This document shows, in pieces, positions 7,511 to 62,511 of a DNA stretch of 64,000 nucleotides. The notes under the pieces were generated by a model. That model had not been told where the DNA came from and did not search any database. It worked only from the letters and a program-made list of their open reading frames with translations. Source of the stretch: Apostichopus japonicus (lineage: Eukaryota; Echinodermata; Holothuroidea; Aspidochirotida; Stichopodidae); the NCBI RefSeq assembly GCF_037975245.1, contig NC_092561.1, forward strand, positions 20,593,008 to 20,657,007, in the 5' to 3' direction. The position numbers and the translations under genes are program-made. How positions within the stretch are numbered: position 1 is the first letter of the stretch; each line of letters begins with the position of its first letter.

Positions 7511-7918
7511 ATGCATTTTTATATCTTCGTGGGATCTTTATATTTCATTCATTGTTGTATGAGCATTAGTACACCTTGTTCTGAGACTGCCTATCCAGAT
7601 GAAAGTACAACCGCAGCCATCGGTCAAAATGTCACCTTCGAATGTGAAATGGATGGAAACTGTCCGTATTTTTTTTGGTTCATCTACCTTGCAAATACAA
7701 GTCGAATTGACCTCTCTGAACGAGAATGCAAGAACAGCTATAAAGCTTGTCACGAAAAAACATATGATGGACGAAACGTTCTTCGTTTAACTGACATAGA
7801 TAATCGTGTAGATGGATATTACCAATGTCTTTGTGCCTCATACCCATCAGATGCCTTTGCGTGTCAACGATTGTTTGTCGGTTGCCAATTTGAAGTCCTC
7901 GTCAATAGCGTTTTGATG
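7511..7918 (+). CDS. Receptor A exon 1: signal peptide and Ig-like domain 1
   Basis: 136 codons, ending in phase 0 at the donor 'gatg|gtaaga'. The start is the first ATG, followed directly by a hydrophobic leader of about 18 residues. Extra cysteines (Cys51 before the Trp, Cys108 after the F-strand Cys, Cys125 in 'CQFEV') go beyond the canonical pair. Confidence 0.85.
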
Positions 7919-10900
7919 GTAAGATTTTAAATGTTTTAGGAAAACATTTGAAATTTGATTTAATATTCATTAGACATTAGATTAACAAACAAGATGGAAT
8001 AAAATAGTGTTAAGGAAAACTTGATCATGCTCTCCGTTGTTATAACGAGTTTATGATTTAACGCTCACAAAATGTGATTTTTATCCAAAATCCTTACTTT
8101 GGTATTTACATAGACGTTTTACGTCTGATCTTAGTTTTTAGAAGAAAACAAAACAGTTAACGAGTTCGCTTTCAGTGATATCCATTTTTTATCATACATT
8201 AATTACTAGGTAGTTTTAAAAGTAAGTATGTATTGTTATAATCATTTTCGAATAGGACATTGAATACAAATTTTATTATTAATAGGAGAAAGATCCTGAC
8301 TGTGATATTATCATTCCGTCAATAAGCATGCATCAATGCTTGCACTATATTTTGGTTTCAGTTCGATTCGAGTGATGTTGTTCACACGCAGACTGATGTA
8401 ATCAACGTTACAGAGGGTGAAGATATAAGAGTGAATTGTCCAAACACCAGTAACTCGCACAACCGTTCTGAAGGTAGATAAACATTGAGACTGAAGGAGG
8501 GTTCCCAAACCTTTAAATGTTTGATTAAAAATCACTGTTAACTGTTATCAATGTATTTTCTTGGTATGAAATCCATAAATCGTAACGGTATCAATGATAC
8601 ATAAATGGTATTGGCCCTATATGCTGCTTCTCTCCATCGAACGCCATCAACGACCACTCGAACGGTTTAACGGTGACTTTGGAGATCAACTTAACAACAA
8701 CTCATTCTCAAGGAAGAAAACCCTCATGTCACTTTTCAGAAGTAAAAGGTTATCTTTTAAAGCAACATGAAGGTTATCTATTAAAGCAACATATTAGTAG
8801 GGTTTCACCTGAGTGTTATTTTCACTAAGCCATGTTATGGCATTTTTTAGAACTCGCAAATGGAGTTTGGTTTCTGCAATTAAAAAGGTACTTTCATCAA
8901 AGACCCTATTATATAATTTACAGGAAAGTTTCACATGGTTGAATTTCAATTTGTTCTTACATTTTCAATATGTTCCTGCAAGTTCTTAACAGCACGTACA
9001 AGACATTTCCTACCGAAAACTTTAGAAGAAAACTTCAAGAAGATGTTCAAAATCTGAAACAAAAATAAGGTCCTAGCTGGTATTTCCATATAAACAGTTG
9101 GACAGATGACATTTTTAGTAAATAGTTGACAGTGTGAGAAAATACTTGAAATGTAGAGAAAAAGGTGAAATAAAGAACTGCACAGGTGGAATTTTCAACG
9201 CCACATTTGGTGCACCGACCCATATACAAAAACAAACAAACTAAAATGTTTCTGAGGATACCCTGAACAACACTGGTTTTCCGCCATCCAACTCACTGTT
9301 ATTACCTTCCTAGAACACTGTTGTAGCATCTAAATCCGACTTGAACCATGATACCGAAAGAACAAACCAGAATTAGTATTAAAATATGAAGTTAAGCCTT
9401 TGTCAGTACTGTCCCAACCAGTTCTAGCAAAACAAACTATAGCAAACAAATATATCCATATATGGTTTCGGGTTTGAGCAAGTTCATTTTTTGTTCTTCT
9501 TAACTAAACTTAACATTTTTTGCGATGTATGGAGGAATCACGTTGTAGTGTTTTGCAAGGTTTTTTGTAATTACTTCCAAATCTCTTCCTGTCATTTGTC
9601 TGGTTGTTTATTGTTTGTATTCTATTAAAGATGGAATATTCTGAAATATAGTTCTATGAAACGAAACTAAACGAAACTATGAAATGTCTGTCTTTAATTT
9701 TGTCTGACATTTGTTATGCCGCTGTTTATCTTTGTGTGAATGCATACAGTCTTATGAGTGATGAAATGTTAACATGAGGGTGAAAGTGGAAGATTTCCAG
9801 ATTTACCACAACACAGCAATACTGGCTAATATCATGACAATCATTTTATCTAGTCGTGGTTATAAACCAGAAGTATTCATTTCTGTAAAATAAAATATCT
9901 TTACTTTAGAGATACAGAGACATTCACCAAATCAAAGTTGAACAGCTCACGATTTGTGAAACTGTAAATGTCATGTTATAGATAATATTTACATATTAGC
10001 AATAATATTTTTTATTCAAGATTCATCAAGAACGTTCACTGCAACAAGATCTCATCAAAATTGCTACATCGAATGTAACTGTAGTAGGATAGGCGCCACA
10101 GGAGTTACCATCAACGTATTGCAACGTGAAACTACCACAACTTCAACGACCGCAGCCGTACATTATATTGCATCAACCACATCATTGGCGAGTTATAGTA
10201 AAGAACAAATGACAGATGGTAAGACACACAACTCAGTTCAGTACCGGTACTGGTATGTCCTATAACGATAAGTATATTGTTGACGTGATTGTTTTTGAAA
10301 TAGTAGCAATAGGCCAGTATCTGTTAATAGATACTGCCAGTCTATGCGTCTCAGATCTACCAAGAATAAACAAATACCAAACTTAAAATCAGTACTTCTC
10401 TAGCAAGGGTCAGAAGTTGTGACTGCTTCTACTTCAGCAATAATTGAAAAGGAAAACATAGCAATAAAATGTTGGACACCATAGTCATGATCGCGTACTG
10501 AATAAAAGTTTTTATTCCTATGCAAAACAAATCATTATTCGTTGAGTAAGCTCACATACTATGACCTTTGCTTGTTAAGCGTCTGAAGCCAATGGGAAGA
10601 ACCAAGTGAGTAGATAAAGACTATGTATACTTGAATATGATCTAACTCCTTTGTTTGACGATTAGTATCCTAATACTGTTTAGCATCAAAATAGTTAGAT
10701 GGATATTTCTCTTGTTTAATGGCATGTCTTCTTTTATTTTTCATGGTCCATTGACATTCGCTACACCCTCCTTCAACGGCAATCACAAACAACTAACAGC
10801 ATGCGACTGTATTCCGGTCGTGGCTGTTCTTCTAGTATCAGTATCAATCCTTGTGCTTGTCGTTGGTGCTCTGTCAATATATATTCGATTTTTGAAGACT

Positions 10901-11182
10901 AATGGATTTCCTAAACCAGTTTCAACGAATGAAGCTATATTTTCACAGCCAGCCGATGCAACGGTTAATACATATGATAATGCTGACGCAGGGAAAGCAG
11001 CAACGTGTCATACCTGCGTACCTAATGCTGAAGTCATGGTTCCACCAATGAGCATTACAGACAATCTCGAAGCGAATTTTTCAGCATATCAACGTAATGA
11101 TGGAAAGTGTGACGCGACCGACTACGAAATCCCCGAAAATGTGGATTTTACGAATGAAGCAAATTATGAAACAATGTATTAA
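7511..11182 (+). CDS. Receptor A: two-domain Ig-like transmembrane receptor with a YxxM tail
   Basis: Predicted four-exon gene: 7511-7918, 8362-8473, 10021-10218, 10800-11182 (1101 nt, 366 residues), all GT/AG with matching phases 0,1,1. Residues 1-18 are a signal peptide. The first Ig-like domain has Cys45, Trp56 and the F-strand pattern D-G-Y-Y-Q-C ending at Cys106. Exons 2-3 form a second short Ig-like domain, with strand-B C-P and later C-Y-I-E-C. Exon 4 supplies a membrane helix (about 244-268) and a tail with Tyr298 (YDNA), Tyr348 (YEIP) and Tyr362 (YETM, a PI3K p85 SH2-type site). Gene B is its tandem paralogue. The old B-like membrane region after exon 3 is frameshifted and skipped by the donor at 10219. 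The role as an immune-type cell-surface receptor is inferred; the ligand is unknown. Confidence 0.8.
8362..8473 (+). CDS. Receptor A exon 2: first half of Ig-like domain 2
   Basis: 112 nt after the acceptor 'tttggtttcag', phase 0 to phase 1. It encodes residues 137-173 with the strand-B pattern 'VTEGEDIRVNCP', ending at 'gaag|gtagat'. The exon is conserved in position, length and phase with B exon 2. Confidence 0.8.
10021..10218 (+). CDS. Receptor A exon 3: second half of Ig-like domain 2 and Thr-rich stalk
   Basis: 198 nt after the acceptor 'tattcaag'. It completes the split domain with C-Y-I-E-C-N-C and V-T-I-N-V, then a Thr/Ser stalk. It ends at 'agatg|gtaaga', a site that is read through as coding sequence in gene B. 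Confidence 0.75.
10219..10400 (+). pseudogene. Decayed B-type transmembrane/tail sequence inside receptor A intron 3
   Basis: Directly after A exon 3 the sequence still aligns with the membrane-coding part of B exon 3 (22176-22330). A one-base insertion ('cagttcag' versus 'cagtcag') shifts the frame, and further changes break the helix. Homology fades near 10400. This is the relic of the ancestral membrane/tail segment, now apparently intronic. Confidence 0.75.
10800..11182 (+). CDS. Receptor A exon 4: alternative membrane segment and YETM tail
   Basis: Predicted from the acceptor 'caactaacag' at 10799, which gives the required phase 1 (G|CA = Ala240). It encodes A-C-D-C-I-P, a long uncharged hydrophobic run, then an Arg/Lys stop-transfer and a 98-residue tail ending ANYETMY. 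The polypyrimidine tract of this acceptor is weak, so the exact 5' edge needs transcript support. AATAAA occurs at 11188-11193, six bases after the stop. Confidence 0.7.
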
Positions 11183-11202
11183 GGCGGAATAAAATTGGCA
11201 TC

Positions 11203-13775
11203 AAGCCACGCGATCGAAATAAATATAAATGCCGCTATGTCCGCTACAAGTTGAAATAAATATTGAGTCTGATATCAATGATAGATATGTGTCATTTGCA
11301 ATGTTTGTTGTAAGTATTAAGCTGAGTGGCTCTCAGGTTAAAATTAAAAAATAAATGCAAGAACATTTTAAACTATATAATTTCAACGGATTACAGTGGT
11401 CTAACATGTTTAGGTCTATGAAAAAGTCATTGTACAACTTGTAAATTATTTCCATGACTAAGATCAGTTCTCAAGGTACAATCGTTGTTGCCCCTTACTA
11501 ATGGGCACATGTAATATGTACCGTTGTAAGTCGTGACGCATCATCAATCGAATTCCACATAACGGTATAAAGTCACTGAGATTAAGCCAACATAAAATAA
11601 AATAAGGTACACCGACATAAACATTCAAATATCAACAATACTTTGACAATGAATAAACATCGGGATAGCCCTATAATAAACAATCTAAGCCTCTTACGGA
11701 TATGTTGGAGTTAGAATTTAGGTATTCATTTCGTATTAAAATGTACGTCAAGCTGGGTAAAGTGGATCTTCACCAACTTGGATGGTAGGCCAATAGCTGA
11801 CATTTTTTTTGTATACAAATGTATAATGTATAAAGTAGGTAACTACCAATGCCAACAGACTTGTATCATGTAATATAGCAAATATGAGATATGCATATGT
11901 TATATGTATTTGTTATAGATTGCAACTAGACAAAGATACTGAATCTACTAAATAAATACAATATATTAGGAAACCACTACTAACTAAGTGCACATTTGAA
12001 TTATACTTCAGTACAATTTAAGAAGTTTTGATTTCACATATTTCACGTCAAGAACATTTGTTCACTTGGCAAACATTACATCATAGAGTATGAAGCTCAG
12101 AATATTGATTCAGAGTATACATACTGTATACATAAGGATAAAGAATCAAATCTAGTTTAATATTCCGTATACATTATTGGATCATTTTGTGTTATTTCAC
12201 TAACAAACTAAACTAACAATCCACGTTTTCTTTTATATGCTTCGAGTAACTGTCACAATTGCATGGAGGAAGCAGTTGTTTTCAATCGACAAAATAAACG
12301 TACGCATTGCGAAACTAGCGAAGTCACATGAACATTTCCCCGTGAGACTGGTAGACTGAACATACTGGTCACTGAAATTATTTAAAGGGCATGACCAGGA
12401 TTTTGTTTTAAAGGTTTTGCGGTGTTTTAACATCCATCGTTACAAAACGCTAATGCTCTAAACAAAGTAATGTTACTCTACAACATAATTTATGCGTCAA
12501 ACTTCATTGGTCATGTTTATTAGTACTGTCGTATCATCACATATCATGGTCTTAAAGGAATGATTTATGCAGAACATTCACAAGTGTAAGTGTCAATGAA
12601 TATTTATGAAAAGGATCAGACTATTGAACAACTATAGAATAATGTATTAGCTAATTCTCAATGACAACACAAACCGAATTGATGCATGTTACGTCACGGT
12701 TCTGTACTGTCACCCCTGTAACCACGGTTAAGATTAACGATTCTTGGATATCTCCCGTTCCCTCTGTTACAGACCTGAGTGTTATTTTTATGATTAACTC
12801 ACATTGACGGCTCATGCAAATAACATATCTACCGCTCTGCTTCACACGCTATAAGAAGATTTAGCCAATTTGCAAACATCTTGATCAAAATTTGACCGAG
12901 ACAATTATCTATACTTTTGTTTTATACAGACTTGACTGTTATAACAGCCTTTTTTTGGTCTTCCTGATTACTAATTCTCTTAGCATCAGCGCATTTAAAA
13001 CATTGCCGCCAAATTAGTTACCCTCACAGATAACATATACCACTTTAAACATATTCTCCACCAATTTCATTGGCTTCCTGCTTCTGGAAGAGTAAAGTAC
13101 AAACTTCCCACCCTCACTTACAAAGCCATTCGTGGTTTTGCCCCAAACTATATTACAACTTACTCACCTTACAAATTCCAACTCGCTTACTAAGATCTAA
13201 CAGTGATATTCTCCTAAAACCACCAAAAATTAGTATGGTGAGCGTCCTTTTCAATTTGCAGCCCCCAAACTCTGAAACAATCTGTCTCCCCACCCACATT
13301 AGAAATACCCCTACAACAGATAAATTATACATCGTCATAAAAACTCACTTATTTACGTGCTACTCTCATTGGACCTTGTAATTATTTCGATCCTTTCGTG
13401 TATCTTTAAGTTTTTGTTCTACTTTGCTGTAGTTTTGTACTAATTTTTTTTTTGTAAAGCACATTGAGATCGTCGGTATATTGCGATATGTAAATAAGTA
13501 TTATTATTATCTCTTTATTCAATATAAACTTTTGACGATGTGTTTAAATATAGATATCGATGACATAATATTCACCTTACAATATGTATTTGTTTTCCTT
13601 TGCATTGTGCATAGAAATTGTAAATTATGGCAGGAAAACTTTTTAATATGAAATTTCTTGTGCGGACTGAGATTAAGGAAGTAATAAGTGTTATAGTTCT
13701 TTTAAATGTAAATTCGACATTGACATTGACATTGATTCATATTCCTATTGAAACTACTAATCTCAACATTAGATA
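11203..13775. repeat. Segmental duplication copy 2 (3' flank of receptor A)
   Basis: Partner of 1-1310. The two copies are collinear from about 20 bases after the A stop to 'ctactaatctcaacatta' (13753-13770, matching 1288-1305). Copy 2 is longer, mainly because of sequence around 12530-13515 that includes a LINE 3' end. Confidence 0.75.
13030..13515 (+). mobile_element. 5'-truncated non-LTR retrotransposon (LINE) 3' end
   Basis: The frame from about 13048 reads H-I-L-H-Q-F-H-W-L-P-A-S-G-R-V-K-Y-K, then L-T-Y-K-A-I-R-G-F-A-P-N-Y. This is the conserved C-terminal block of CR1/L2-like reverse transcriptases, interrupted by stops and frameshifts. A later block reads F-A-A-P-K-L. The 3' end has the typical 'gtaaagcacattgagatcgt' sequence and an ATT repeat tail at about 13497-13511. 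It is dead and absent from the paralogous segment 1-1310. Confidence 0.8.
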
Positions 13776-13905
13776 GGAATCTCGACTGTACGATTGTTAT
13801 AAGGACAACATTGAGGTTTGATATGGCGGACACTGTACACCGAAGAGACCAGCACACTTTATTACATATATATAGGTGCTTGCTGGAAGTTTTTCACTGT
13901 TTTGG

Positions 13906-13911
<6 letters not shown>

Positions 13912-13937
<26 letters not shown>

Positions 13938-13938
13938 G
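13912..13938. repeat. AT dinucleotide microsatellite
   Basis: An uninterrupted TA run of about a dozen units downstream of the LINE fragment, with no coding context. Confidence 0.9.
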
Positions 13939-17958: not shown

Positions 17959-17978
17959 CACACACACACACACACACA
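17959..17978. repeat. CA dinucleotide microsatellite
   Basis: About nine to ten CA units in AT-rich intergenic DNA. Confidence 0.9.
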
Positions 17979-19028: not shown

Positions 19029-19433
19029 ATGCATGTTTATTTCTTTCTGGGATCCTTATTTTTCATCCATTGTTGCATGAGCAGTAGCGGTTGTATTGAT
19101 TATGAATATCGAGATGAAAGTACAACCGCAGTCATCGGTCAAAATGTCACCTTACAATGTGGAATATATGGAAACTGTCCATTCTTTTATTGGTTCATCT
19201 ACCTTCCAAATACAAGTCGCATTCACCTCTATAAAAACGAATGCAATGACAACTATAAAATATGTCACACAACAACATATGATGGACGAAACGTTCTTCG
19301 TTTATCTGACATAGATAATCGTGTAGCTGGACATTACCAATGTCTTTGTGCCACAAACCCACCATATGCCTTTGCGTGTCAACGATTGATTGTCGTTTGC
19401 CAATTTGAAGTCTATGTCGAGAAAAAATTGGTG
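19029..19433 (+). CDS. Receptor B exon 1: signal peptide and Ig-like domain 1
   Basis: 135 codons, phase 0 donor 'gtg|gtaagaa'. The start and exon end correspond to A exon 1. The F-strand Q-C-L-C and terminal C-Q-F-E-V motifs are shared with A. Confidence 0.88.
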
Positions 19434-22400
19434 GTAAGAATTTGTATATTTTAAGAAAGACCTTTAAAGTAAGCTTTAAAATAGATTAGACATAAGATTA
19501 ACAATTGAGATGGAATAACAAAGTGTTAAGCAAAACTTGATCATGCTCTCCGTTGTAATGACGAGTTTATGATATAACGCTTACAAATGCATTGTTAATC
19601 GAAATTCCTTACTTTAGTATTTACATAGATGTTCTTCGTCTGATCTTAGTTTCAAGAAAGGAAACAGTTTACGATTTCTCTTTCAGTGCTATCCGTTTTC
19701 TATCATGAATTAATTAGCATGCCGTTTTAGGTCTGCATATGCATTATTATAATCATTTCCGAATAGGACGTTGTATGTTAATTTATGATTATTAGGAGAA
19801 AACCCCTGACTGTGTTATTATTATTCCGTCGATAAACATGCATCAATGTTTGAAATATATTTTGGTTTCAGTTCAATTCAAGTAGTATTGGTAACACGCA
19901 GACTCATGTAATCAACGTTACAGAAGGTGAATACATAAGAGTGAAGTGTCCAAAGAACAGTAACCGGCACAACTGTTCGGAAGGTAGGTGTAAACTTAAG
20001 ACCTACGTAGGGTTTCCAAAACTTAATGTGTTTGATTAAAAAATTGCTGTAGACTGTTATCAGTGTATTTTCTTGGTATGAAATCAACAAATCTTAACGG
20101 TTTCCAAGATACATAAATGGTATTGGCCCTATATGCTGTTTGTTTTCCATCGAACAGCATTAACGACCATTCGAACGGTTTGTCGGTGACGTTGGAGATG
20201 AACTTAAACATCTCATAAACTCCAATTAGTTTTCGATGAAGAAAATCCTCGTGTCACTTTTCAGTATTAAGAGGTAATCTCTTGAAGCCACATATTAGTT
20301 GGATTGTACCTGAGTGTTATTCTCACTAAGCCATGTCACAAATGGGTTTAAGGTTCTGCAATTAATAAGGACCTTCATCAACGACAATATTATATAATGT
20401 ACAAGGAAGGTTTTCGCGATTGACCCCAACCCCCTCCCTGGAAAAGAATGGATAAAACTGTCGAATATTTTACATGAACTGTCGAAATTCCAATTTTGTT
20501 CTTACATTTTTGAAACAAGTTCTAACCAATTTCTACAAGACTTTTTATACCGCAAACGTTCGAGGAAAACATTTCAAGAATGTATTCAAAACCTGAAAAG
20601 AAAATGGGGTACTTAGCTGGTATTTCCATATAAACAGTTAAACTTATGAGAAAGAAGAAAGAAGGGAAAACAGTTGAAATTTTGAGAAAAAGGAGAAATA
20701 AAGAATGGAAAAGGTCTTATTTCCAACGTTCCATTGATGCATCGTACCGTCTACAAACTAGAATTCTTCTGAGGAATACCCTAAACCAGACCGGTTTACT
20801 ATCTTTCAACTCACTGTTAATTATTCCTATAACGCCACTGCTTCAGCATTTGAACTAAGGTAGCGATAGACCAAACCAGAAATAGTGTAGCTATAAAGTT
20901 TAGCATTTGCCAGGTGCTGTCACAAGCAATTCTAGCAAAATTAACTTTCAAAAACATTATATCCAAATTTTGTTCCGGAATTAGGCCAGTTCATTGTTTT
21001 GATCTCCTTAACTAAACTTTTTATATGAACTGTCAATTTTTTAACTTTTTCTTACATTTTACATACAAGTTCTTACCATTGATGCATCGTACCGTCTACA
21101 AACTAGAATTCTTCTGAGGAATACCCTAAACCAGACCGGTTTACTATCTTTCAACTCACTGTTAATTATTCCTATAACGCCACTGCTTCAGCATTTGAAC
21201 CAAGGTAGCGATAGACCAAACCAGAAATAGTGTAGCTATAAAGTTTAGCATTTGCCAGGTGCTGTCACAAGCAATTCTAGCAAAATTAACTTTCAAAAAC
21301 ATTATATCCAAATTTTGTTCCGGAATTAGGCCAGTTCATTGTTTTGATCTCCTTAACTAAACATCGCATTCTTGCGATGTAGGAATCACGTTCTAGTGTT
21401 TAGGAGTGATTAAACCTACAAGCTTTTGCAAGGTTTTTGTAATCACTTCCCACTCTTTATACCTGACATTTTGTCTGGATATATATTGTTGTATTCTATT
21501 AAAGATAGAGAGTCTGAAATATAGCTTTACGAAACGAGTCGAAACTATGATATCTCTGACTTTACTTACTTTAAGTTTGGCTGAAATTGTTTCCTCCGGA
21601 AGGACGACGATTTGTTTAAATGGCAGCGCCTTATGCCGCTGTTTATATTTTGTATCAATGCATACAGTTTTATGTGAGAAGTATGACGTGTGAATATGAG
21701 GGTAGAAGTGGAAGATTGCCAGATTTACCACAACACAGCAAACATTACGTCTAATCATGAAAAACTTTTTATTAAGGTTTGCTAATAAACCAGAAATTTT
21801 CATCTCTGTAAAATAAACTATCTTTACTTTAGAGAACCAGAGAAATTCACCAAATCAAAGTTGAACTTCAAAGAAAGCTCACGATTTGTGAAACTGTTAA
21901 AAAAATGGTAGTTTTCAAGATAATATGGACAGCAAATTTTCTTTATATTCAAGATTCATCGAAAAGGTTCACTGCAACAAGATCTCATCAAAATTGCTTC
22001 ATCGAATGTAACTGTAGTAGGATAGGCGCCACATGGGTTACCATCAACGTATTGCAACGTGAAACTACCACAACGTCCAAAACTACCACAACGTCAACTT
22101 CAACGACCGCAGCCGTACATTCTATTGCATCAACCACATCATTGGCGAGTTATAGTAAAGAACAAATGACAGATGGTAAGACACACAACCCAGTCAGTGC
22201 CGGTACTGGTATGTCCTCTAACGATAATTACATTACTATCGTGATCGCTCTGGTAATAGTAGCTATATTTCTATTGATAGTGGCTGTCGGCTTATGCGTC
22301 TATCTCAGGTCTTCCAAGACTAAACGAAAATCAAACTCAGAAACCAAGAATAAAGCAATGTTCCCACAGTCAACATATGCATCTGCTCCTACGTATGCAA

Positions 22401-22822
22401 TGATTGACAAAGAAAGATATGGAAATGCAACAGCAGGAATTGATGTTGCAGAATTGAAGGAAACAACAAATAGTGACGCATTAGAGAGTGGTGTCGAATA
22501 CCCTGTAGTGAATCCTAAGCCAGGTCGTGTGGAGGAGAAAACTGAACAGACTACTACGTCGAACATTTCTTCAGAGAAGGAAAATAAGAACAGCATGAAT
22601 TATGAGAACGTAAATGAATTACAATCCAAATTACCAAAAAATAACGGAGATGCGTTAAACAAAGACGATTACGATACCGACAACATTAAATCTTCAAAAC
22701 TTAACTCTGAAGTAGGTGACTCGAAGTTTGTTCATATTCCAGAGTATGCAGAAGTAAATCACTACGCGACAAATGATGATGACGTATCTGTTTTGTATGC
22801 TTCTGTTGACAAACCTCGTTAA
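19029..22822 (+). CDS. Receptor B: two-domain Ig-like receptor with ITIM-like tail
   Basis: Predicted three exons: 19029-19433, 19872-19983, 21954-22822 (1386 nt, 461 residues). Residues 1-18 are a signal peptide. Ig-like domain 1 has Cys44, Trp55 and G-H-Y-Q-C at Cys105. Exons 2-3 make a split second domain (Cys161 to Cys187/Cys191), followed by a Thr-rich stalk at about 209-235. A membrane helix spans about 266-289, with a Lys/Arg stop-transfer. The 170-residue tail has VEYPVV (Tyr355) and VLYASV (Tyr454), both fitting the ITIM consensus, plus YENV (Tyr389, Grb2-type) and YAEV (Tyr437). In known families ITIMs recruit SHP-type phosphatases. That role here is inferred. Paralogue of A. Confidence 0.87.
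19872..19983 (+). CDS. Receptor B exon 2: first half of Ig-like domain 2
   Basis: 112 nt, acceptor 'tttggtttcag' and donor 'gaag|gtaggt'. It encodes residues 136-172 with 'VTEGEYIRVKCP'. Length and phase are identical to A exon 2. Confidence 0.85.
20731..21363. repeat. 288-bp tandem duplication in receptor B intron 2
   Basis: 20731-21018 and 21076-21363 are almost base-for-base identical, with one difference noticed (aactaagg versus aaccaagg), offset by 345 bases. The near-identity implies a very recent duplication, or an assembly artefact. A related single sequence is present in gene A intron 2 near 9240-9510. Confidence 0.9.
21954..22822 (+). CDS. Receptor B exon 3: half domain 2, stalk, membrane helix and ITIM tail
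   Basis: 869 nt from the acceptor 'tatattcaag' to the stop at 22820-22822. The exon carries everything from C-F-I-E-C-N-C to the C-terminus. The internal GATG|GTAAG at 22175/22176 is a potential donor, the same one that gene A appears to use. Confidence 0.88.
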
Positions 22823-22849
22823 ACGTGGTTCCCACCTTACGCAGATATA

Positions 22850-22923
<74 letters not shown>

Positions 22924-25262: not shown

Positions 25263-25724
25263 GTGACAACGCTCACTATTGCTTGTAAATCACCATCAGT
25301 TATGGCTCGATTTGAATTTGTTCACTGCGTAGTCTCTTTTACCTGCATTTTCCTTTTTCAAATTTGTTTTGCTACGACGTTTCCTTCAATTGAGGAGAAG
25401 GACGTAAAATTGGAGAACATTGCATTTGTAATTGGAAGCAGCCTGAATCTTTCTTGTAACATCTTTCCTAATTGTTCACGAATGGTGTGGCAAATAGGAA
25501 TTCCCGGTTACCTCGTTAAAGAAGGTGATTGCGATGGCCAAAACAACTATTGCCATTACAAACATGGTAACCAAAGTGTCCTCTCCATGACGGGCAGAGC
25601 TACTCCTCACAGGAATTTAATTGAATGTCAATGCGAAGACCAAAATAAAACACTTATTCCAGTCAGACGATTCCAACTTTCATTCACATGTCAAGCCTTT
25701 GTGGAGGTCAACAGTGTCGTAACG
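25263..25724 (+). CDS. Receptor C exon 1: signal peptide and Ig-like domain 1
   Basis: 154 codons from the first ATG, phase 0 donor 'aacg|gtaact'. The leader is residues ~17-37. Family cysteines are retained: P-N-C before the Trp, E-C-Q-C, and C-Q-A-F-V-E-V at the end. Confidence 0.8.
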
Positions 25725-27304
25725 GTAACTATCAATACGTAGTACGCTATTAAAATGTTTTAAGGAAATTGTCATTTGCTTTCATTTTCAACGCTTCATG
25801 TTAAATAGGTAATCTTCCTTCACAGTAAAAGTACTTCTAGTATCTTAACAGATAGGCATATAACGGAGGTTGGTCCACCCAGTACTTTTGTAACTAATAG
25901 CCATTTCTTTTAAAACGTTAGTTTGCAACAAAAAAATGTTGGTAAAAGTTATCATATGTTATTGTCCCATATATGCATTCACATGTAAAAACTGTTTTTT
26001 CTTAAATCAGATTTACAACAGCTCTAGCTACTGTGAAACAGATACTAAAAGTCCCTTACATTTTTTCGTGACCAATGGAACAAATGTGACAGCTCGGTGC
26101 CAAGAAGGGTTATCGTCTATGACCAACTGCACTGTTATGAATGGTATACATGAAACTTCACATTGAAACTATTCTGCGAATTATCAAGCTTTTTTATAGC
26201 CTTAGCTATATACTTCATGATAGGAATAAAGTCACACTTATGTTTGATCTTCAACATCATCTTATTAGAGTTCAGATAGGAGCATCGGCACAGAGCTAAT
26301 TACGTACAGAAAGTACCTTTCTCAAGACCAAAATTAGAGAAACATTTAGCCCAGTGTAATTAATGTACATGCTATAAAACTTAAATAGTGTAAGTGTGTA
26401 AACCCTAAAGCAAGTTACGATTTTTTGTCATAGGATACGCTAGAAGATATTCACGTGAACAGGATATGTGGTGAGCAACTTCAACTGTTACAAATTATAT
26501 TGTGTGGGCCAAGTTGTAGTTCAGAAATGCAAATGTAAAGTTAATGTGATTTGCGTTCTCAATAGAACCAACTTTGACCGTTGAACCACTATGACCTTTT
26601 CCCTTTCTTTACACTTTTTATACTTCTTTTCTCCCCAAGATGAGACATCAGCTATGATTTTCATCACCTCTCTTGATACACACTGCTACGTTGAATGTAA
26701 CTCGACTCTTCCCTCTTGTCATTTGAAAATTGCGTTTCAAGCGTTCAATGAAGACGACATGAGGACTGGATCCATGAAGACACCTCTAACAACCATGAAC
26801 AGTTCGTTTCCTCCCATATTTATCATCATTTCTAGTACTAGTATTGTTTTTATTATTGTTGCTTTATTTCTACTTGCAACATGTATTTGCGCTCGTAGGT
26901 CAGACAAGTCTAAGAAAGCAATAGTACCCACTTACTCGACGGTAGACAAAACTCCCAGAACAAGCAATTCGACAGAGCTAGATGTGAAAGGCACCACTGC
27001 TAACAACCAAGTCAAAGATGGCGACTCATGCCATACCTCTGCTGATGTTGAGCAATACTATTGGGAGCCCGATAACGTTATTCCAACAACAAGAAGTAAC
27101 GCATTAACCAATCAAAAAGCCGCCTATCTTGATACCAATGATGAATTGCAGCTACCGATTGGTAACGCGATATGCCGAGTAGATGATGATACTATGTACG
27201 CTGTTTCAGATATCTCTTTCAATGAAATTGCCCATCACAAGCAGACCAAGTCCAATCCCGCTTCACACTTCGTTAACGAAACCTACATGACGATGACGGT
27301 TTGA
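25263..27304 (+). CDS. Receptor C: divergent Ig-like receptor with YMTM tail
   Basis: Predicted three exons: 25263-25724, 26011-26143, 26640-27304 (1260 nt, 419 residues). A second in-frame ATG at 25302 would give 406 residues and places the hydrophobic leader closer to the N-terminus, so it may be the true start. Domain 1 has Cys65, Trp76 and E-C-Q-C at Cys122. Domain 2 is split over exons 2-3 (V-T-A-R-C, then C-Y-V-E-C). A helix spans about 258-282, followed by C-A-R-R. Tail tyrosines: Tyr297 (YSTV), Tyr361 (YLDT), Tyr385 (MYAVS) and Tyr414 (YMTM, PI3K p85-type, like the CD28 YMNM class). Exon phases equal those of A, B and D. An activating or co-stimulatory role is inferred from the motif only. 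Confidence 0.83.
26011..26143 (+). CDS. Receptor C exon 2: first half of Ig-like domain 2
   Basis: 133 nt after 'cttaaatcag', ending 'aatg|gtatac', phase 0 to phase 1. It encodes 'TNGTNVTARCQEG', the counterpart of 'VTEGEDIRVNCP' in A. Confidence 0.78.
26640..27304 (+). CDS. Receptor C exon 3: half domain 2, membrane helix and YMTM tail
   Basis: 665 nt after the pyrimidine-rich acceptor 'cttttctccccaag'. It begins D-E-T-S, parallel to D-S-S in A and B, and ends N-E-T-Y-M-T-M-T-V. Confidence 0.83.
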
Positions 27305-45600: not shown

Positions 45601-48600
45601 AGTAATCACTGTGCTGCATTTCTGTGAATATCTAACACACAGAGATTTAAGATGTAATTGCTAATGGATACACTAATTACAGCTGAATACACAATTCTCC
45701 CCTGCAGGAAATGATCATCGATTAATAGTATGTTATCTTTATCATCACATACAGTGTGGTGCAACATTCCTTTGACAGATGCAGGGTAACATTAACAATT
45801 ATGAACTTTTCATTCCTAGTATAATATGATCTAGAAAAACAGAATCAAACATGGAAACAAATCCAACAACTTGATCCCACATCAACAGCACTTTGACCAA
45901 ATTGTCTGATACTCACCAGAAGCTAATACATGAGTCTGTCCAGGTTGCACAGGTGGGTTATGTGTCTCATTTGTCAAACCTACCTGTCTCCCCACATCAA
46001 CAGCACTCCCAGCCATTGTAATTACAGTTATTGTGAGAAGGCAGGCAAGTTGAAATAAATTAATCAAAAAACAGTGGCTATCTTTCAACCAAATTGTCTG
46101 ATACTCACCAGAAGCAAATACATGAGTTTACCCAGGTGGCACAGGTGGGTAATGTGTCACATTTGTCAAACTTACCTGTCTCCCCACATAAACAGCACTC
46201 CAGCCAGTACAGTACAGTTATTGTGAGAAGGCAGGCAAGTTGAAATAAATTAATAAATAAACAGTGGCTATCCTTTGACCAAAATGTATGATACTCACCA
46301 GAAGCAAATACATGAGTTTCTCCAGGTTTCCAGGTGACACAGGTGGGTAGTGATGACCCAGGTACCCTGGCCAGTTTCCTTGCTGGGTAAGATTTCCTTG
46401 TGTCCCATAATAAAATACTACCATCCTGTTAAAAAACAAAGCACAATCTTGTAAGAACAGGGCTGATTTATGACTGTAGTTAAGCTACAGTGCCTTGATC
46501 TAAAGACTTGAGTTCAAAATACATTTACAGAAGTTAACTACTTCTTGTTTTTTGCCAAACAAACACATAGCAAACAGCTGAATACATGTCCACTGTGAAT
46601 TCTCTTCACCAAAATCCCACAGAACACAAACAATAAATCGTGTTGGAAAGGTTTTGACACTTAAGTCACAATAGATAGTACAGGTGCCATCACAAGGACC
46701 ATTCCAATTTCTTAACAGATATCAATCCTCTTCCTTTGACCGCCTCTACACAAAATGTCAATGTGGGTGGCTACACCAGCCATAATCCGGGTACTGCCAG
46801 CCAAATCAAACAATTTCTTAGCAAGACTCTTCGCCATCACTTTAGCAAAATACTACTCGCTACATACAGTACAGTAAGGTGGGGTACAGTAGGCTTAGGG
46901 ATTACTTTTGAATCAAACAAAGTTACTTTAGCAATACCTCCTCACAGATAGACGGCTATACGGATATTTTATTACATTCTTTTTTCTTTTCACTCCTTGA
47001 TAGATTTGCTGCTTACCTGCGAACATGAGAGGAAAACGTCTAACTCATTGGGACTGCAAGCAACACATGTGACCTTAGAGGTGTGGCCTTTGAATGTTGA
47101 TATAGAACTCTGCTGGCTTAAATCCCAAATTTTCACCCTGAAAAGGATTAAAAAAAAGAGAGAGATGTTTTCAAGTAGGAAATACAAGTTACTCTTGAGT
47201 TACGGTAGTATACCAAACGGGGTCATTATACTGACCACAAGCTTTGCTAATGTAATGTAATGTAAATAAAATCTTATATAGCGCACTACGCGCGATGCAT
47301 CTGTGCATCTTGTTAAAGGTCCAAACATTTACAACATCAGCATTTATTATATCAACTCACTTCATGTTCATGCAGCTAGAGGATATCAAGTCTGGAGACT
47401 TTCTCCAGAAAAATTAATTTCTTTAATTTATATAATATGTAAGCAAATTTGAGATTTTGTCTATTGCCTTAATACTTAATCCTTAACTTAAAACTTAACC
47501 TGCCTGAACCCAATCATTTCTGAAAAACTTAGCTACATATTACGAAATGCCATAGTTTTAGCTTTCATGTGATACCCTACATGTGATGTTCAACGTTTTT
47601 TTAATTTTTGTTTCATAATGAAAGGTTTTCCAGTTGCCCTAAATTTTTTTAATTTTTTTAAATTTTTTAGTTTTAGCTTTCATGTGATACCCTACATGTG
47701 ATGTTCAACGTTTTTTTAATTTTTGTTTCATAATGAAAGGTTTTCCAGCTGCCCTAAATTTGTTTGTGATGACTAAATATCTGAGTAAGATCTTGTTCCG
47801 TTTGAGAGATATGGTGGTTCAAAGGTCATGTCACCTTCTTAATCTGTGATGTCATTCTGCCAAATGGAGGTGAAACATTTGACCTTTGCTTTGGTTGTCT
47901 TTTCATAATTTAAGGTCAGCAATACACAAGTGCTGAACATGATACCAATAGCAATGTAGCATCACAATCAAAACTTCAATGGTTTAGGATATATTGCTAA
48001 ATAGGCATTTGCAAAACTCATCTCTAATATGGGAAACAAAATAATGTGAGGATTCAAGACAATTCTAATTTCATTCATTTTGGCTGAGGTCAAATGGCTC
48101 TATGATGTAATGTTGAGACTCTGTTGAGCTCTGTTTGCGACAAAACAAGAAACTGTGATAGCTGTCACATGGAGTACAAGTTTTGTCAGCGGTGTCACGG
48201 ATGTCACGGATGTTGTTTATTGCTAGCATCTCTACGACACTAGCAAATTGGGCAACTTGTGATATAAGTGCAAAGATGTATGGCAGTTTTTGTTAACAGT
48301 AACCACATATTATTTTGTATTAAGGGATCTGTCAGAGCCTTCAAAAGTGCAATATACAAAATTTGAGCAGTAAATCTTTTCCAATCTTGGCCAATGGGTG
48401 ATGGGTTAGTGTTGGCCTTCCCCTTGAACCTTAAAGGCATTGAAGACTCGCCCCAAACCAGGTGCTGCGCTCTGAAAAAGTTAACTTACCGTTGCTTGCA
48501 AGTGAAGTTTACTTCTTGTCGCTGCAAAATGCAGACAGTAATTAAAACCTTGTTATCTTTAGCTGGACCTGAGATGTCCATCGCTGTATTGTTTGTACAC

Positions 48601-58413: not shown

Positions 58414-58871
58414 ATAAATCCATATGATTTTTTATTTCATCGGCTGCCTTCATCATTAGCTGTCTTCTGCACAGTGATCGTAGATCCTGTTTCGGAATAA
58501 CTTCTTATTTTGCGTTGCAACATCAGCATCTGAAGGAACTTTCATGGAATCTCTCATTTTTTCTCCACACTTTTCTGTCTTTTTCCTTCTCTTGTTTATT
58601 CCCTACCCTCTTCCCTTAATCCCCTCCTTGTCCCTCTACAGTTTATTTTCTCCCTCTCCTCTTACCCCCATTGGTTCTTTTTTCTCTCCATCCCTTGTCT
58701 ACTAACCTCCTACATATTTCTCTTTGGTGTTCACCCTGCTCTTGAACCTGTCTTTATTCTGTGTCTGCATTTGTCCCTTCTGTTACTGTAACTTGTCATT
58801 TACAGCTTCTGAAGAAGATCCTTCTGGGATCGAAACGTCAGGCTGTTACTTTTACACATAAATCCATATGA
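58414..58871. mobile_element. Element with 14-bp TSD carrying a fragment of a receptor D-like tail exon
   Basis: ATAAATCCATATGA is found at both 58414-58427 and 58858-58871. Between them, 58446-58555 aligns with the 3' coding part of D exon 3 (about 59147-59270; shared blocks 'cttctgcacag', 'gatcgtagatcctg' and 'aacatcagcatctgaaggaac'). A long pyrimidine-rich stretch follows. A 34-base segment at 58809-58842 (ctgaagaagatcc, then gggatcgaaacgtcagg) resembles the hammerhead-like motif of Penelope-type elements. On the minus strand the exon fragment is in sense orientation and is followed by 'atgaaataaaaaa'. Confidence 0.68.
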
Positions 58872-59084
58872 GTTACAACAGGACATACTTCGAGGTTGGC
58901 GTCCCCACTCTCAACAAAGTGTCCATCTCTGACCCTTTTTTACTCCTCATTCTACTTTGACTGCTAAAAACATTAAATTATCGAAATCACTGGCTCCATA
59001 TTTAAAACAGTTGAGAGAGAGAAGCCCCATCAGAAATGTAGAAAGAAGAAATATGCCAATTAGTTTACCATTTCGGCAGGTGTT

Positions 59085-59992
59085 CTATTTAACGGTACTC
59101 TTCCTTGACTTGTCGACAACTGCATATACCACAGATACATCTAAGTCAACATCAGCTGCCTTCTGCACAGCGATCGTAGATCCTGGCTTGGAATAATTAT
59201 CATTCAACTTTTCATTTTGCGTTGTAACATCAGCATCTGAAGGAACTTTCGTGGAATCTCGCTTGTCTTCCATGGCGACATCATATTCTACGGATTCATC
59301 TAATGTTGCGTTTGTCGATGCTTCGGCTGTTTTTGTAACTGGTTTGTTTTCATTCATGTGAACGTCGCGTTTGCCCTGATCCACTTCGGAGTACATGGGT
59401 TCCTCCTGTGAGCCAGCAGCCACAATCCGTGAAGTCATTCCACACGCTTCATCAGATACATCGATGCCATCTTTTGGAATCCTCGACGACTTCATGCGTC
59501 TTTTAGTCAATGCAAGTGCTTTAAAGTTACGACATAGGCAACAATACCAACAACCAAAGACAAGCATTAGCAAAAGTAATATAGCAATTACGATAAGTGG
59601 AATCACGAATGGGGAGTAAATCAAAGCTGCGTTTAATATTTCTCCTGTCGTGACGGAGTTAAGATACATTTCACCAGTAGAACTCCTTGGTTCTTCCGGA
59701 TCTCTGGGTGTAAAGTTTTCAGTTGTTCTTGCTTGTAAAGTCGGAGTTATACTATGACTAGCAGTATCTTTTGGTTTGTTGGTTATAGAGCGTGGGAGGT
59801 CCGTCTGCTGCTTGTCAATCCCATCTGTCTTCAGATTGTGAGTGGTAAAATGAGTCGTCATTTGTGGAGTGGTTTGTGCGATTGCCTCTTCGACATTCAA
59901 AGTCATGGTAACTCCACACTGGTCTTCCACCAGGCAACGTATCCTACAGAGATGATGATAGATCGTCGCATTGAAGCTGAATGGTGAAGTGC
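59085..59992 (-). CDS. Receptor D exon 3: half domain 2, stalk, helix and ITIM tail
   Basis: 908 nt after the acceptor 'ctgtattag', phase 1. It begins S-T-S-P-F and ends K-S-T-V-K. A fragment homologous to its 3' part lies at 58446-58555. Confidence 0.84.
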
Positions 59993-62511
59993 CTAATACA
60001 GGGAAACAAGTTAGTCAAGTTATCAAATAGACATCATCACATTCATCATCGTCAACCTTCATGGTTATGTTCATCCTTATCATCATTGTCATCTACATCG
60101 TCATCGCCATCGTAGTCATCGTCATTTTCGTTGTTTTATCAATTAAATAAAGTATGCCTAACATTGCCAGATGCTTACAATAAAATCGAACAGCTGTAAG
60201 TATTAGTCAATATATTTTGAATTTGTTTTTACACTCCTGAAGAGTTATAGAAGATGGGAGCTGTAAGACATTGGAAGGTTTGAGTTGGTTCAGGGGGCAG
60301 GTACATTACTTAGGTATGTTATCGAGGACGTGAAAGTAGACATCACGGAAATTGTCTTTAGAATTCATTAATACAAAAAGCAATAAAAAAATAAGAAATC
60401 AAACACTTAGCCCAATATAAATAAAATATGGTGATAAATCAAGTTCATGATATACATACGGTTACGAACAACAGAGGATAAACGGTATAGCTGTCTTAGG
60501 CCGGGATGGGTATGAAGTTAGTATACACTCTAATTCACTGACGGTGTTACGTGGCAATTAACAGTGTTATCCTAGATGTTTGTAATTTGATTAATAACAT
60601 GAACAAAAATATTGAATTAAGAGTCACCATATGGCTTCGCGAGTAAATGCCGTAATTGGGACAACTAAAGTGTCTTTGAATAATGAACACTTACTTAAAA
60701 GATTAAGATCAGAACAGTTGGTAGTCAGTGCTGCACTTTCTTGACATTGGACTGTCACCATCTCCCCTTCCTTAAGACTGATATCGAAAGTTGAATTCTT
60801 CGCAGCACGAGTGCTGTTATACATCTGTAGAAAATGAAATGCATTTAAGGCTATGAACAAACGTTGTTGAGCATCATTTAAAAAGAAAAGGACATTGTAG
60901 GGTTTATATAATGATGATATTCATGAATTCCTGGCAAATATTGTTGCAACGTTCGCTATCGGTAACTACTATTGGGCATATACTGTAACCTATAGCGCAG
61001 GGGTTCCCTAGCTGGGGTGCATGAGCCCCGGGGTGCGTGAGTCCATCCCAGGGGTTCGTGAGACGTTTCTGAAAGTCAATTCTAGAGTACTTTTTGTTTT
61101 TTGTTGGACTAAAATCTGATTTTTCATATAATTTAGTAATGTACAAAAGTCGTACCTATCGGCAAATTCTTTTCATGTTCCATATACGCATATGTTGCCA
61201 TAGTACTACCGCACAGTGCATGTGATAAATAACGTTATAAAATAAAGTTTTGAAACAGATACAAGCTGCATGACTTTGGTGAAGTTGGTGTACGCATGAC
61301 AGTACGTCAAGTTTCCAAATAAATATTGGTTCATCTCTTGTTTTGTGTTTTCATTACCATATTACACTTTGTACTTGATCTTTTAAGAAGCACTGTTTTG
61401 CGTATTATAGACTAAATAATGACTCAGATCGTGTCTCGAAAGGTTGGGGGTTCGTGGACAACTCTGACATCCTCAGGGGGTTCTTGGTGGGATAAAGTTA
61501 GGGAAACCCTGCTAAAGCTCTATGCGTTGGATGGCGATAAAAGGATAAAGTGAAGGTAGTATATAGTTTTAGATCCTAGTGGCCGTTCTCCTTCGTCTTT
61601 CCAACATATCACCGATTATAAAATCAGTTAGTTTTGCGGGACGTTTAAAGGGTCCCGAATGCATGGACTTTATCCCAACAATGGATCATAAAAAAAGGAA
61701 ATCGAAATAATTTAGAATATCCTGTGGAATTTTCACCTGTAAATAATGTCAGGATTTCCTAAATGCAAAACAAAATGACGTTTCGCTAAGGACAATTTCA
61801 CACATGGAGCTTTCCCAGTCACTCCCTATGCATTTAATTTGAGTCTGTAACCTTCTCTTGCAAAACAATTAAACAAAATTTCATCTTTCTTTGTTTTCTA
61901 CATAGTGGGAAACAAAATGAGGTATTGTGACCATAGGGATTTTATACCGTAATAAGACATACTATGAAGGAAAACAATAATTTGACACAAAGTTAGGAAG
62001 CAATGGACACGCATTATGTACACACAGTGCAATTCATAGATGTCTATATACTAATCATCTAAGATTAAAATATAACAAAAAAAAACTAACTAAACAGTTG
62101 ACAAAATTAAAAGATAATGCTTACTAGTGGTTGATGGTTGCTCGTTTTAATCTCCATCTGACATATCCCGATCAACTCGAAACAATGAACTAGCTCAGTT
62201 CCACTACTTTCTCCTTGAACGCATCTACATTTAACATAGCCAGTGGTATTTGTAGTGGCATTGAAGATGCTTAAAATATGTTTTCCGTCATCCACATTGT
62301 AACAGATGTTGTTAATGCATTGGTCACTTTGCACCGCGATATTCCTTGGTGGTGCAGTCCAAAATGTATCAGAACAGCTAAAAGGTGCATTACAAAGTAA
62401 TGTCAGATTTTTTCCAAAGACTACCTCGACCGCATCAGCGCAGGAATCGTTAGCTTCTGTTTTATACATAGCGGCAGAAATGCACATGAAGAGGAGAATA
62501 AAATGTTCCAT
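59085..62511 (-). CDS. Receptor D: Ig-like receptor with ITIM-like tail, inverted orientation
   Basis: Predicted three exons: 62511-62125, 60824-60695, 59992-59085 (1425 nt, 474 residues), phases 0 and 1 as in A-C. Residues 1-20 are a signal peptide. Domain 1 has Cys40, Trp51 and G-Y-V-K-C-R-C at Cys95. Domain 2 is split: V-T-V-Q-C in exon 2, C-R-I-R-C and V-T-M-T-L-N-V in exon 3. A Thr/Pro stalk precedes a helix at about 300-322, then a Cys-rich/basic juxtamembrane. The 150-residue tail has Tyr373 (YSEV), Tyr409 (YDVA), Tyr439 and VVYAVV (Tyr462), an ITIM fit. The C-terminal D-V-S-V-V-Y-A-V-V-D-K matches the end of B. An inhibitory role is inferred. Confidence 0.84.
60695..60824 (-). CDS. 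Receptor D exon 2: first half of Ig-like domain 2
   Basis: 130 nt after the acceptor 'attttctacag', donor 'tttaa|gtaagt', ending in phase 1. Encodes L-K-E-G-E-M-V-T-V-Q-C, equivalent to V-T-E-G-E-D-I-R-V-N-C in A. Confidence 0.8.
60998..61511. mobile_element. hAT-type non-autonomous element in receptor D intron 1
   Basis: The left end CAGGGGTTCCCTAGCT and the complement of the right end (CAGGGTTTCCCTAACTT) are typical hAT termini. Flanking octamers ctatagcg and ctaaagct are similar but diverged, consistent with an older insertion. 514 bp, no transposase seen. Confidence 0.72.
62125..62511 (-). CDS. Receptor D exon 1: signal peptide and Ig-like domain 1
   Basis: 129 codons, phase 0 donor 'ccacta|gtaagc'. 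The ATG at 62511 is followed by a hydrophobic leader. Family cysteines are present: S-C before the Trp, K-C-R-C, and C-Q-M-E-I at the end. Confidence 0.84.

Follow-up and report, generated by a model that had tools for sequence, protein, structure and literature searches.

The window, a stretch of 64,000 nucleotides of the Apostichopus japonicus genome, contains four predicted genes, A to D, which on their sequences are assigned to a family of type I membrane receptors that has expanded in tandem and amounts to about 50 predicted cell-surface receptor genes in this species. The common exon and phase plan expected of the four was found in all of them, with GT/AG splice sites and intron phases 0 and then 1, and so were a signal peptide, an Ig-like domain in exon 1, a membrane helix and a tyrosine-bearing tail. 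As deduced from sequence, the layout comprises a first domain (D1) in one exon, a second domain (D2) split by the phase-1 intron, a stalk, one uncharged helix and the tail. A Thr-rich stalk, proposed for all four genes, occurs in most members, but that of gene C is short. Two details of the original prediction required correction. There is no ATG at 25263, where gene C had been started, the first in-frame ATG being at 25302; and gene A, drawn with three exons, has four (phases 0,1,1), with helix and tail in a separate exon at 10800-11182. The features, in window positions, are as follows.

7511-7918, + strand: gene A exon 1, encoding the signal peptide and a V-type Ig-like D1 (matched by Ig_3 of Pfam at E 0.0024, which falls short of the curated cut-off; AF2 pLDDT 55.7)
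8362-8473, + strand: gene A exon 2, first half of D2
10021-10218, + strand: gene A exon 3, remaining half of D2 with the Thr-rich stalk; terminal donor GATG|GTAAG
10219-10350, + strand: gene A, decayed remnant of helix 1 behind the donor, frame shifted relative to gene B (matches residues 82-116 of B exon 3 in another frame)
10800-11182, + strand: gene A exon 4, coding for helix 2 with tail 2, which ends NYETMY and has no ITIM
19029-19433, + strand: gene B exon 1, signal peptide and D1
19872-19983, + strand: gene B exon 2, first half of D2
21954-22822, + strand: gene B exon 3, remaining half of D2 with the Thr-rich stalk, helix 1 and tail 1 (10 Tyr)
22493-22510, + strand: gene B tail, ITIM-type motif VEYPVV
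22790-22807, + strand: gene B tail, ITIM-type motif VLYASV, at the position equivalent to VVYAVV of gene D
25302-25724, + strand: gene C exon 1, signal peptide and D1 (by alignment; no Pfam match at E <= 1)
26011-26143, + strand: gene C exon 2, first half of D2
26640-27304, + strand: gene C exon 3, remaining half of D2 with a short stalk, helix and tail (6 Tyr, no ITIM)
62125-62511, - strand: gene D exon 1, signal peptide and D1, predicted V-type Ig fold (AF2 pLDDT 85.9, pTM 0.75)
60695-60824, - strand: gene D exon 2, first half of D2
59085-59992, - strand: gene D exon 3, remaining half of D2 with the Thr-rich stalk, helix and tail (5 Tyr)
59115-59132, - strand: gene D tail, ITIM-type motif VVYAVV

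In gene A the frame of exon 3, read onward, meets a stop after 81 codons, and exon 2 carries NR in place of the NC of its relatives, which holds the second D2 cysteine.

We searched the A. japonicus genome with seven exon-1 sequences as single-protein queries and obtained 49 places in five clusters, 42 of them with an open frame and 7 broken or partial. This count leaves out a weak match at C15:15567098 (E 0.56) and isolated matches elsewhere, with E values of 0.0097 to 10, including those at C12:7433492 (E 0.0097), C10:1422478 (E 0.014, three stops) and C9:15768569 (E 0.019, two stops). Also uncounted are five loci of different exon make-up, L043 and L044 (C1:18.37-18.38) and L045-L047 (C12). 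Complete models with the same exon plan were built at 22 further loci (9 + 13), although for 13 of these the search script itself demanded the phases. The model finder, given 30 sequences, returned 13 complete models; L015 lacked exon 2, and the rest were broken, cut or outside the finder's patterns, so that an absent model in this run is uninformative. Support for the gene plan that is independent of the phase-constrained search comes from gaps among six paralogs: all 28 that fall in exons 1-4 have lengths divisible by three, as against 75 of 364 outside exons. The Pfam V-set model had to be rejected as a finder of this family: none of the 140 matches listed (150 of 653 candidates scored) fell in the two large arrays. 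This may explain why the family is absent from the expanded families named in the accessible part of the genome paper (PMC5638244).

The D1 of gene D is predicted to be a V-type Ig domain of the immunoglobulin superfamily. Its AF2 model, obtained from an input without signal peptides and with the D sequence first, is confident and has nine strands, and it gave a best Foldseek E of 9.3e-6 and a VIA Z of 12.4. The Z values are tied among TCR and antibody V domains, TREM2 (Z 12.1, rmsd 2.6 over 95 residues), TLT-1 (Z 12.0, rmsd 2.7 over 95 residues), NCAM2 and others. Exon 1 of gene A, modelled from four sequences including their signal peptides, folded poorly; the model had no Foldseek match at E <= 0.001, and bacterial CspC/CspA chains took its top two VIA rows (Z 7.8 and 7.7), with the TCR rows lower at 6.9. 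For genes B and C the Ig-like assignment is made through the alignment, in which the B/F cysteine pair and the Trp are invariant across 15 exon-1 sequences. Pfam gave no Ig match for genes C and D; among 10 further exon-1 proteins an Ig family was the top match in all 10, each time under its curated cut-off. The solved structures best matching a D1 profile were DIP-theta (E 4.7e-6) and contactin-1 (E 4.8e-6), followed by DIP-eta and LRIG1.

The second unit, described in the original prediction as a small Ig-like domain split over exons 2 and 3, is a genuine conserved unit interrupted by a phase-1 intron and is at most a putative Ig domain. It has three invariant cysteines and others that are near-invariant across 13 sequences, in none of which Pfam found a believable match. 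Against the PDB, the D2 profile yielded 20 matches at E <= 5, all of them Ig proteins by title, which are weak and cover the first half of D2 only; the best was Fc gamma RII (E 0.024). A recent duplication of one domain into the other is unsupported, the profile-profile probability between D1 and D2 being 1%. The proposed cluster of Ig-type, type I receptors with tyrosine tails is supported, with far more than four members, while the claim of two Ig domains holds for the first domain only.

ITIM-type motifs ([SIVL]xYxx[ILV]) occur 14 times, in 12 of 29 tails (two in B, one in D and none in A or C), leaving 17 tails without. Shuffled tails contain 5.4 and 0 of 500 shuffles reach 14, a comparison that ignores relatedness and is not a probability since relatives share motifs. 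None of the 29 tails contains an ITAM or hemITAM, and none of the 29 helices has a charged residue (K, R, D, E, H) in its 21-residue core. We therefore reject both signalling through an ITAM or hemITAM of the tail itself and adaptor pairing by a charged helix residue, and the activating half of a receptor pair lacks support.

What is new here, as read from the sequences, is one array with two apparently exchangeable tails. In the array at C1:20.45-20.66 Mb, ectodomains of one kind are predicted to be joined either to tail 1, the open continuation of exon 3, with ITIM-type motifs, or to tail 2, encoded by an exon of its own to which a donor within exon 3 leads. All 11 tail-2 exons lie in this array, and 10 of the 11 are open, where about 1/4 (0.21-0.44) would be by chance at this divergence. 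The full tail 1 has been lost from all 11 tail-2 genes, which read through for at most ~178 codons versus 256-289 in B, L010 and L001, and in six of them the helix-1 stretch behind the donor has gaps in multiples of three in 0 of 20 cases. Some tail-2 genes carry lesions: the donor is absent in L002 and L003, L009 has GTG in place of ATG, and L008 and L013 are broken. Distant genes have tail-2 exons 87-92% alike, versus exons 1 that are 59-62% alike. L012 is scored as a recombinant with its breakpoint between exons 3 and 4, at the junction of ectodomain and tail (0 of 300 permutations, the two parents having been chosen after viewing the identity table). Recombination between genes thus appears to have linked the ectodomain of one with the tail of another.

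In one array the dN/dS of D1 is 1.32 (bootstrap 0.93-1.98, or 0.95-1.98 without L012, both ignoring relatedness), and dN exceeds dS in 24 of 27 pairs. The ratio is 0.96 in the group of L004, L007 and L013, and C15/C3 members give 0.86. We therefore make no claim of significant positive selection on D1, as the bootstrap spans 1 and the C15/C3 group stands at 0.86. Paralogs vary in D1 on strands as well as loops, and hot spots in CDR-like loops are rejected, 786 of 5000 shuffles (ignoring relatedness) reaching the observed loop-strand difference. For the tail exons dN/dS is 0.85 (0.55-1.37, ignoring relatedness), an interval with which the ratio does not demonstrate purifying selection on the tail.

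We consider it somewhat more probable than its negation that this is a tandem family of Ig-type receptors with exchangeable tails, working as a set like paired receptors on immune cells. We infer an innate immune role from the tandem arrays, the presence of ITIM-type motifs in part of the tails, the swapping of two tails, the ectodomain-tail recombination and the D1 dN/dS of 1.32, which is not significant. The ratio of 0.86 in C15/C3, the lack of a significant excess of D1 variation in loops, the uncharged helices and the profile matches to neural adhesion proteins are neutral or count against it. D1 would bind a cell-surface or microbial ligand, and tyrosines of the tail, once phosphorylated, would recruit SH2 proteins. 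B, D and their relatives, which carry ITIM-type motifs, may have a dampening effect, and A and its relatives, which carry none, would not, the array acting as a paired-receptor set on immune cells such as coelomocytes.

The family might instead serve self- or allorecognition or homophilic adhesion, marking individuals or cell types, as do Hydractinia Alr or insect Dpr/DIP, rather than sensing microbes. The neural adhesion proteins that head the D1 profile matches point in this direction, as does the variation of D1 on strands as well as loops; Botryllus FcoR and Alr, so far as the accessible reports describe them, are allorecognition candidates with ITIMs. Matches at such a level, however, indicate the Ig fold and not the role. 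A stalk bearing two short domains, combined with long tyrosine tails and an exchange of tails, is an architecture seen more often in regulatory receptors. Sea cucumbers, moreover, are solitary animals, and we regard such a function as unlikely, at roughly one chance in four.

The idea that most copies are decaying or unexpressed duplicates, in a family dying in this lineage with few working genes, draws on the 7 damaged exon-1 places, the lesions among the tail-2 genes and a tail dN/dS near 1. Open frames at 42 of 49 exon-1 places, tail-2 exons open well beyond chance and exon gaps that keep the frame throughout make it improbable. Very improbable is a vertebrate-type family (KIR/LILR, TREM/CD300, NITR or FcR-like) in an echinoderm: the predicted D1 fold of gene D resembles TREM2 and TLT-1 as closely as it does TCR V domains and D2 weakly matches Fc gamma RII, but antibody V domains, NCAM2 and others tie at these Z values as well, and no family-specific Pfam match was found in the four window proteins. 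The split, cysteine-rich D2 is also unfamiliar there; we know of no such feature in these families.

Within the preferred reading of a paired-receptor-like set, a more far-reaching version is possible, although we hold it with less than even confidence: that the echinoderm complex invented the paired-receptor design independently, with ~50 germline V-type Ig sensors set on a new, small, cysteine-rich membrane-proximal fold, and ectodomains shuffled between two tails across intron 3 so that one ligand specificity would be switched between an inhibitory and another output. Tail 2 itself occurs in two forms: one ends IKYETI and has an ITIM, the other ends NYETM and has none. If this version is true, solitary invertebrate deuterostomes adjoining the chordates possess an array of Ig receptors whose signalling tails are exchangeable, parallel to those of tunicates, cnidarians and vertebrates, the sequences being so far without demonstrated relationship. 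It would then become testable whether ITIM-type decision circuits form the constant, ancestral element and the ectodomains are what gets replaced.

Vertebrate paired receptors (KIR, LILR, CEACAM, FcR-like) form tandem arrays, with alternative tails on similar ectodomains, ITIMs, and recombination between ectodomain and tail. The A. japonicus family is like them in its tandem arrays, alternative tails, ITIM-type motifs and ectodomain-tail recombination: similar ectodomains bear alternative tails within one cluster, with recombination between them, and the inhibitory feature of KIR/LILR, the ITIM, is found in 12 of 29 tails. Unlike the activating KIR/LILR members, it has no charged helix residue in any of 29 genes, and its D1 is of predicted V type. 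TREM2 and TLT-1 are similar to the predicted D1 fold of gene D, in a tie with TCR V domains; the hallmark of TREM/CD300 is a single V-type Ig ectodomain with a family-specific extra disulfide, whereas A. japonicus has D2 besides. Additional cysteines also occur in the A. japonicus family. The VCBPs of amphioxus and tunicates are germline-encoded molecules of Ig-V type, secreted and with a chitin-binding domain. They share with our family the germline Ig-V type in invertebrate deuterostomes, but A-D have a membrane helix and a tail, and no chitin-binding match was found in them (Pfam, E <= 1).

The suggestion that the family is possibly undescribed fits our literature search, in which no echinoderm report of such a receptor family was found, but Ig receptor clusters with ITIMs are known in other invertebrates, as the accessible parts of the reports on Botryllus FcoR and Hydractinia Alr describe. 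FcoR of Botryllus schlosseri (fester co-receptors, tunicate fuhc locus) is described there as having a V-type Ig, a sushi and two C2-type Ig domains, with ITIMs. Against these four domains A. japonicus has one V-type Ig domain and the small cysteine-rich D2; no sushi match was found in A-D (Pfam, E <= 1), the 29 tails, unlike FcoR, have no hemITAM, and the difference in tails lies between genes, again unlike FcoR. The Hydractinia Alr genes (allorecognition complex, 41 genes) are, by the same partial sources (PMC12065747, PMC11999971), clustered IgSF genes, some with an ITIM or ITAM; they encode V-set and I-set domains, and their allorecognition role is a genetic fact in Hydractinia. Likened by description, Alr and the A. 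japonicus family are both clustered invertebrate IgSF genes with ITIMs in some members. The evolution of the A. japonicus family resembles that of paired receptors, with Botryllus FcoR and Hydractinia Alr as its invertebrate analogues.

The exons of the four predicted Ig-type receptor genes in the window (A-D) were joined by script at GT/AG splice sites, giving the following models.

Gene A, plus strand: exons 7511-7918, 8362-8473, 10021-10218 and 10800-11182; phases 0,1,1
Gene B, plus strand: exons 19029-19433, 19872-19983 and 21954-22822; phases 0,1
Gene C, plus strand: exons 25302-25724, 26011-26143 and 26640-27304; phases 0,1
Gene D, minus strand: exons 62511-62125, 60824-60695 and 59992-59085; phases 0,1

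The exon/phase plan (0,1) that the original prediction had assigned to all four genes is present in 4/4 models, with an additional phase 1 in A; the start proposed for gene C at 25263 is not an ATG and had to be abandoned, the model beginning at 25302. The 30 kb separating C from D (28000-59000) contain no recognisable gene; a Pfam search of 40 open frames in the window that lie outside A-D yielded three single hits at E ≤ 0.01, the strongest being NOT2_3_5_C (2e-4). At 45882-46484, on the minus strand, repeated short open frames look by eye partly like a WD-repeat protein (DGSILLWDTRKS...); WD repeats are named in none of the listed Pfam matches.

The exon-1 domain (D1) had been predicted to be Ig-like, and profile and structure comparisons bear this out. 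Pfam matched A to Ig_3 (E 0.0024) and B to an Ig family (E 0.012), both under curated cut-offs, and gave no Ig match for C or D; for 10/10 further exon-1 proteins the best match was an Ig family, always under its cut-off, the strongest being V-set at 5.9e-5. Searched against solved structures, a profile built from 15 exon-1 domains retrieved Ig proteins, headed by DIP-theta (4.7e-6) and contactin-1 (4.8e-6), and reached CD8 alpha at E 0.004. The mature exon-1 domain of D, folded using an alignment with the sequences of A, B and C, gave a predicted structure of pLDDT 85.9 and pTM 0.75, with 947 Foldseek matches at E ≤ 0.001 (best a TCR V domain, 9.3e-6, and NCAM2 Ig1, 9.8e-6). In VIA-align its best 50 rows were tied (Z 12.4-11.5) and included TCR V domains and antibodies, together with TREM2 (12.1) and TLT-1 (12.0). 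The exon-1 model of A was poor and its structural matches weak. The B and F cysteines and the tryptophan are invariant in 15/15 exon-1 sequences, as are further cysteines, among them a CxC at strand F. In the small, possibly Ig-like second domain (D2), formed by joining the end of exon 2 to the start of exon 3, three cysteines are invariant and others near-invariant across 13 sequences from three chromosomes.

Pairwise gaps between six array genes (A, L003, L005, L006, L009 and L012), an analysis that needs no gene finder, mark the same exons as coding. Gaps per 100 bases number 0.21 in exon 1, 0 in exon 2, 0.17 in exon 3 up to its donor and 0.18 in exon 4. The figure is 1.5-1.7 in each of four non-exonic stretches: intron 1, the initial 500 bases of intron 2, the sequence leading up to exon 4, and the 3' flank. 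Exonic gaps are multiples of three in 28/28 cases; the corresponding counts are 19/87, 22/120, 25/80 and 9/57 in those four non-exonic stretches, and 0/20 in the 200 bases past the exon-3 donor. These pairs cannot be treated as independent, yet the difference is obvious. No gap interrupts the alignment of B with L010, another array gene, across 600 bases of the first membrane helix and its tail.

The genome-wide copy number that had been called for came from searches with seven exon-1 sequences (those of B, D and C, plus members from C15, C1:4.3 and C1:12.57).

Exon-1 places by genomic region (Mb)
C1:20.45-20.66, the array containing the window: 19
C15:15.33-15.56: 21
C3:19.07: 2
C1:4.30-4.34: 6
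C1:12.57: 1

By count there are 49 places, 42 of them neither broken nor partial, including L009, in which the ATG of its relatives is replaced by GTG. The remainder lie on C1 (20471483, 20535521, 20537977, 20568201) and C15 (15415466, 15422624, 15471589). The C1 copy at 20568201-20568628 (L011) is a broken copy of gene C, 50 kb upstream of it, 87% identical in one frame and 93% in another. Copies at C1:4306123 and C1:4335603, 29 kb apart with identical scores and frames, are a recent duplication in the family's fourth cluster. Full models with phases 0 and 1 comprise 26 genes: four in the window, nine elsewhere in the array and 13 on C15/C3, where the phases were imposed as a search condition. 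By eye, L031 and L014 also show the same three parts.

Two kinds of tail follow these ectodomains in the array. Exon 3 stays open through helix 1 into tail 1 in B, L010 and L001 (289, 283 and 256 codons), and a separate exon 4 encodes tail 2 at 11 places, all within C1:20.45-20.66 Mb, one behind each of L002-L009, L012, L013 and A. None of these 11 genes has a full tail 1; L002 retains helix 1 and about half of it. Exon 4 is open in 10/11, where a random one would be expected open in 0.21-0.44 of trials at the observed divergence. An internal exon-3 donor, GATG|GTAAG or GATG|GTGAG, occurs in 9/11 tail-2 genes; L003 has CT instead of GT, and a search of L002 found no donor to tail 2. Since the same donor sequence sits inside the open exon of B and L010, alternative splicing of such genes would be possible given a nearby tail-2 exon; the tail-2 search placed none near either gene. 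Tail 2 weakly resembles tail 1 (E 0.04 against B and 0.067 against L010) and may therefore stem from an old duplication of it. Similar ectodomains on C15/C3 carry two further tails: L017, L018, L021 and L025 have one that ends GVYHYVVTS..., and L015, L016, L019 and L020 one that ends LYDEIK.

Exchange between genes of the array is also seen. Exon 1 of L012 is 100% identical to L005 after rounding, and its exon 4 is 97% identical to A versus 88% to L005. Among 474 informative sites, those left of L012 position 3020 favour L005 over A by 241 to 25, and those to the right favour A (36 to 172), a split reached in 0/300 permutations; the breakpoint falls between exon 3 (donor 2845) and exon 4 (3435). 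L004, L007 and L013 are 59-62% similar to the main group in exon 1 and 87-92% similar in exon 4, as if their tails had spread separately from the ectodomains.

The tails contain 14 ITIM-type motifs ([SIVL]xYxx[ILV]), in 12/29 tails; the shuffle mean is 5.4 and 0/500 shuffles reach 14, a count that is not a probability because related genes hold motifs in common. Yxx[ILV] occurs 36 times versus 22.1 in shuffles (2/500), ITSM once versus 1.3, and neither ITAM nor hemITAM occurs in the 29 tails; the core of 29/29 helices lacks a charged residue. ITIM-type motifs are VEYPVV and VLYASV in B, VDYSAV and VLYATV in L010, VLYASV in L001 and VVYAVV in D; six tail-2 genes terminate in IKYETI or IKYDTI, and A, L003 and L012 in NYETM. 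Such motifs would be expected to recruit enzymes.

Nei-Gojobori dN/dS with bootstrap, in eight array genes, was 1.32 (0.93-1.98) for D1, 0.61 (0.29-1.34) for D2 and 0.21 (0.06-0.50) for the signal peptide; it was 0.85 (0.55-1.37) for nine exon 4 sequences and 0.86 (0.56-1.40) for D1 of the C15/C3 group. D1 evolves faster than its own signal peptide. Positive selection on D1 is not established, given the array bootstrap of 0.93-1.98 and the C15/C3 value of 0.86, and variation in the D1 loops is not significantly above the rest.

Judged from sequence, the best account of the family, with chances a little better than even, is that its members work like paired receptors, which set similar ectodomains on alternative tails. 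The strongest rival, that they serve self or allorecognition and adhesion, we hold to be about half as probable.

Other Ig arrays were also seen in this genome. On C12 (1.1-25.5 Mb), 68/140 listed Pfam V-set matches (hand count) form several arrays, e.g. at 9.88-10.24 Mb; the three loci inspected (L045-L047) have V-like exons followed by C2-like exons, and these arrays are a distinct, perhaps larger, Ig receptor expansion. C15:4241493-4249503 carries seven V-set matches in a very regular tandem array (~1.29 kb spacing). The neighbouring genes L043 and L044 (C1:18.370-18.383 Mb) each have two V-like exons and then a C2-like exon, a plan that differs from that of A-D.

Germline families named for echinoderms in PMC13428168 are TLR, NLR, scavenger receptors and SpTransformer; further background came from PMC13228809, PMC5638244, PMC9501386 and PMC11999971. 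Searches on echinoderm or invertebrate Ig receptors brought up no account of such a sea cucumber family among the titles and abstract beginnings listed. The kind of receptor is already known, because Botryllus FcoR comprises Ig receptors at 53 loci with ITIM and hemITAM tails, the motif being swapped by splicing (PMC12065747); an echinoderm family with D2 and tail exchange is, to our knowledge, new.
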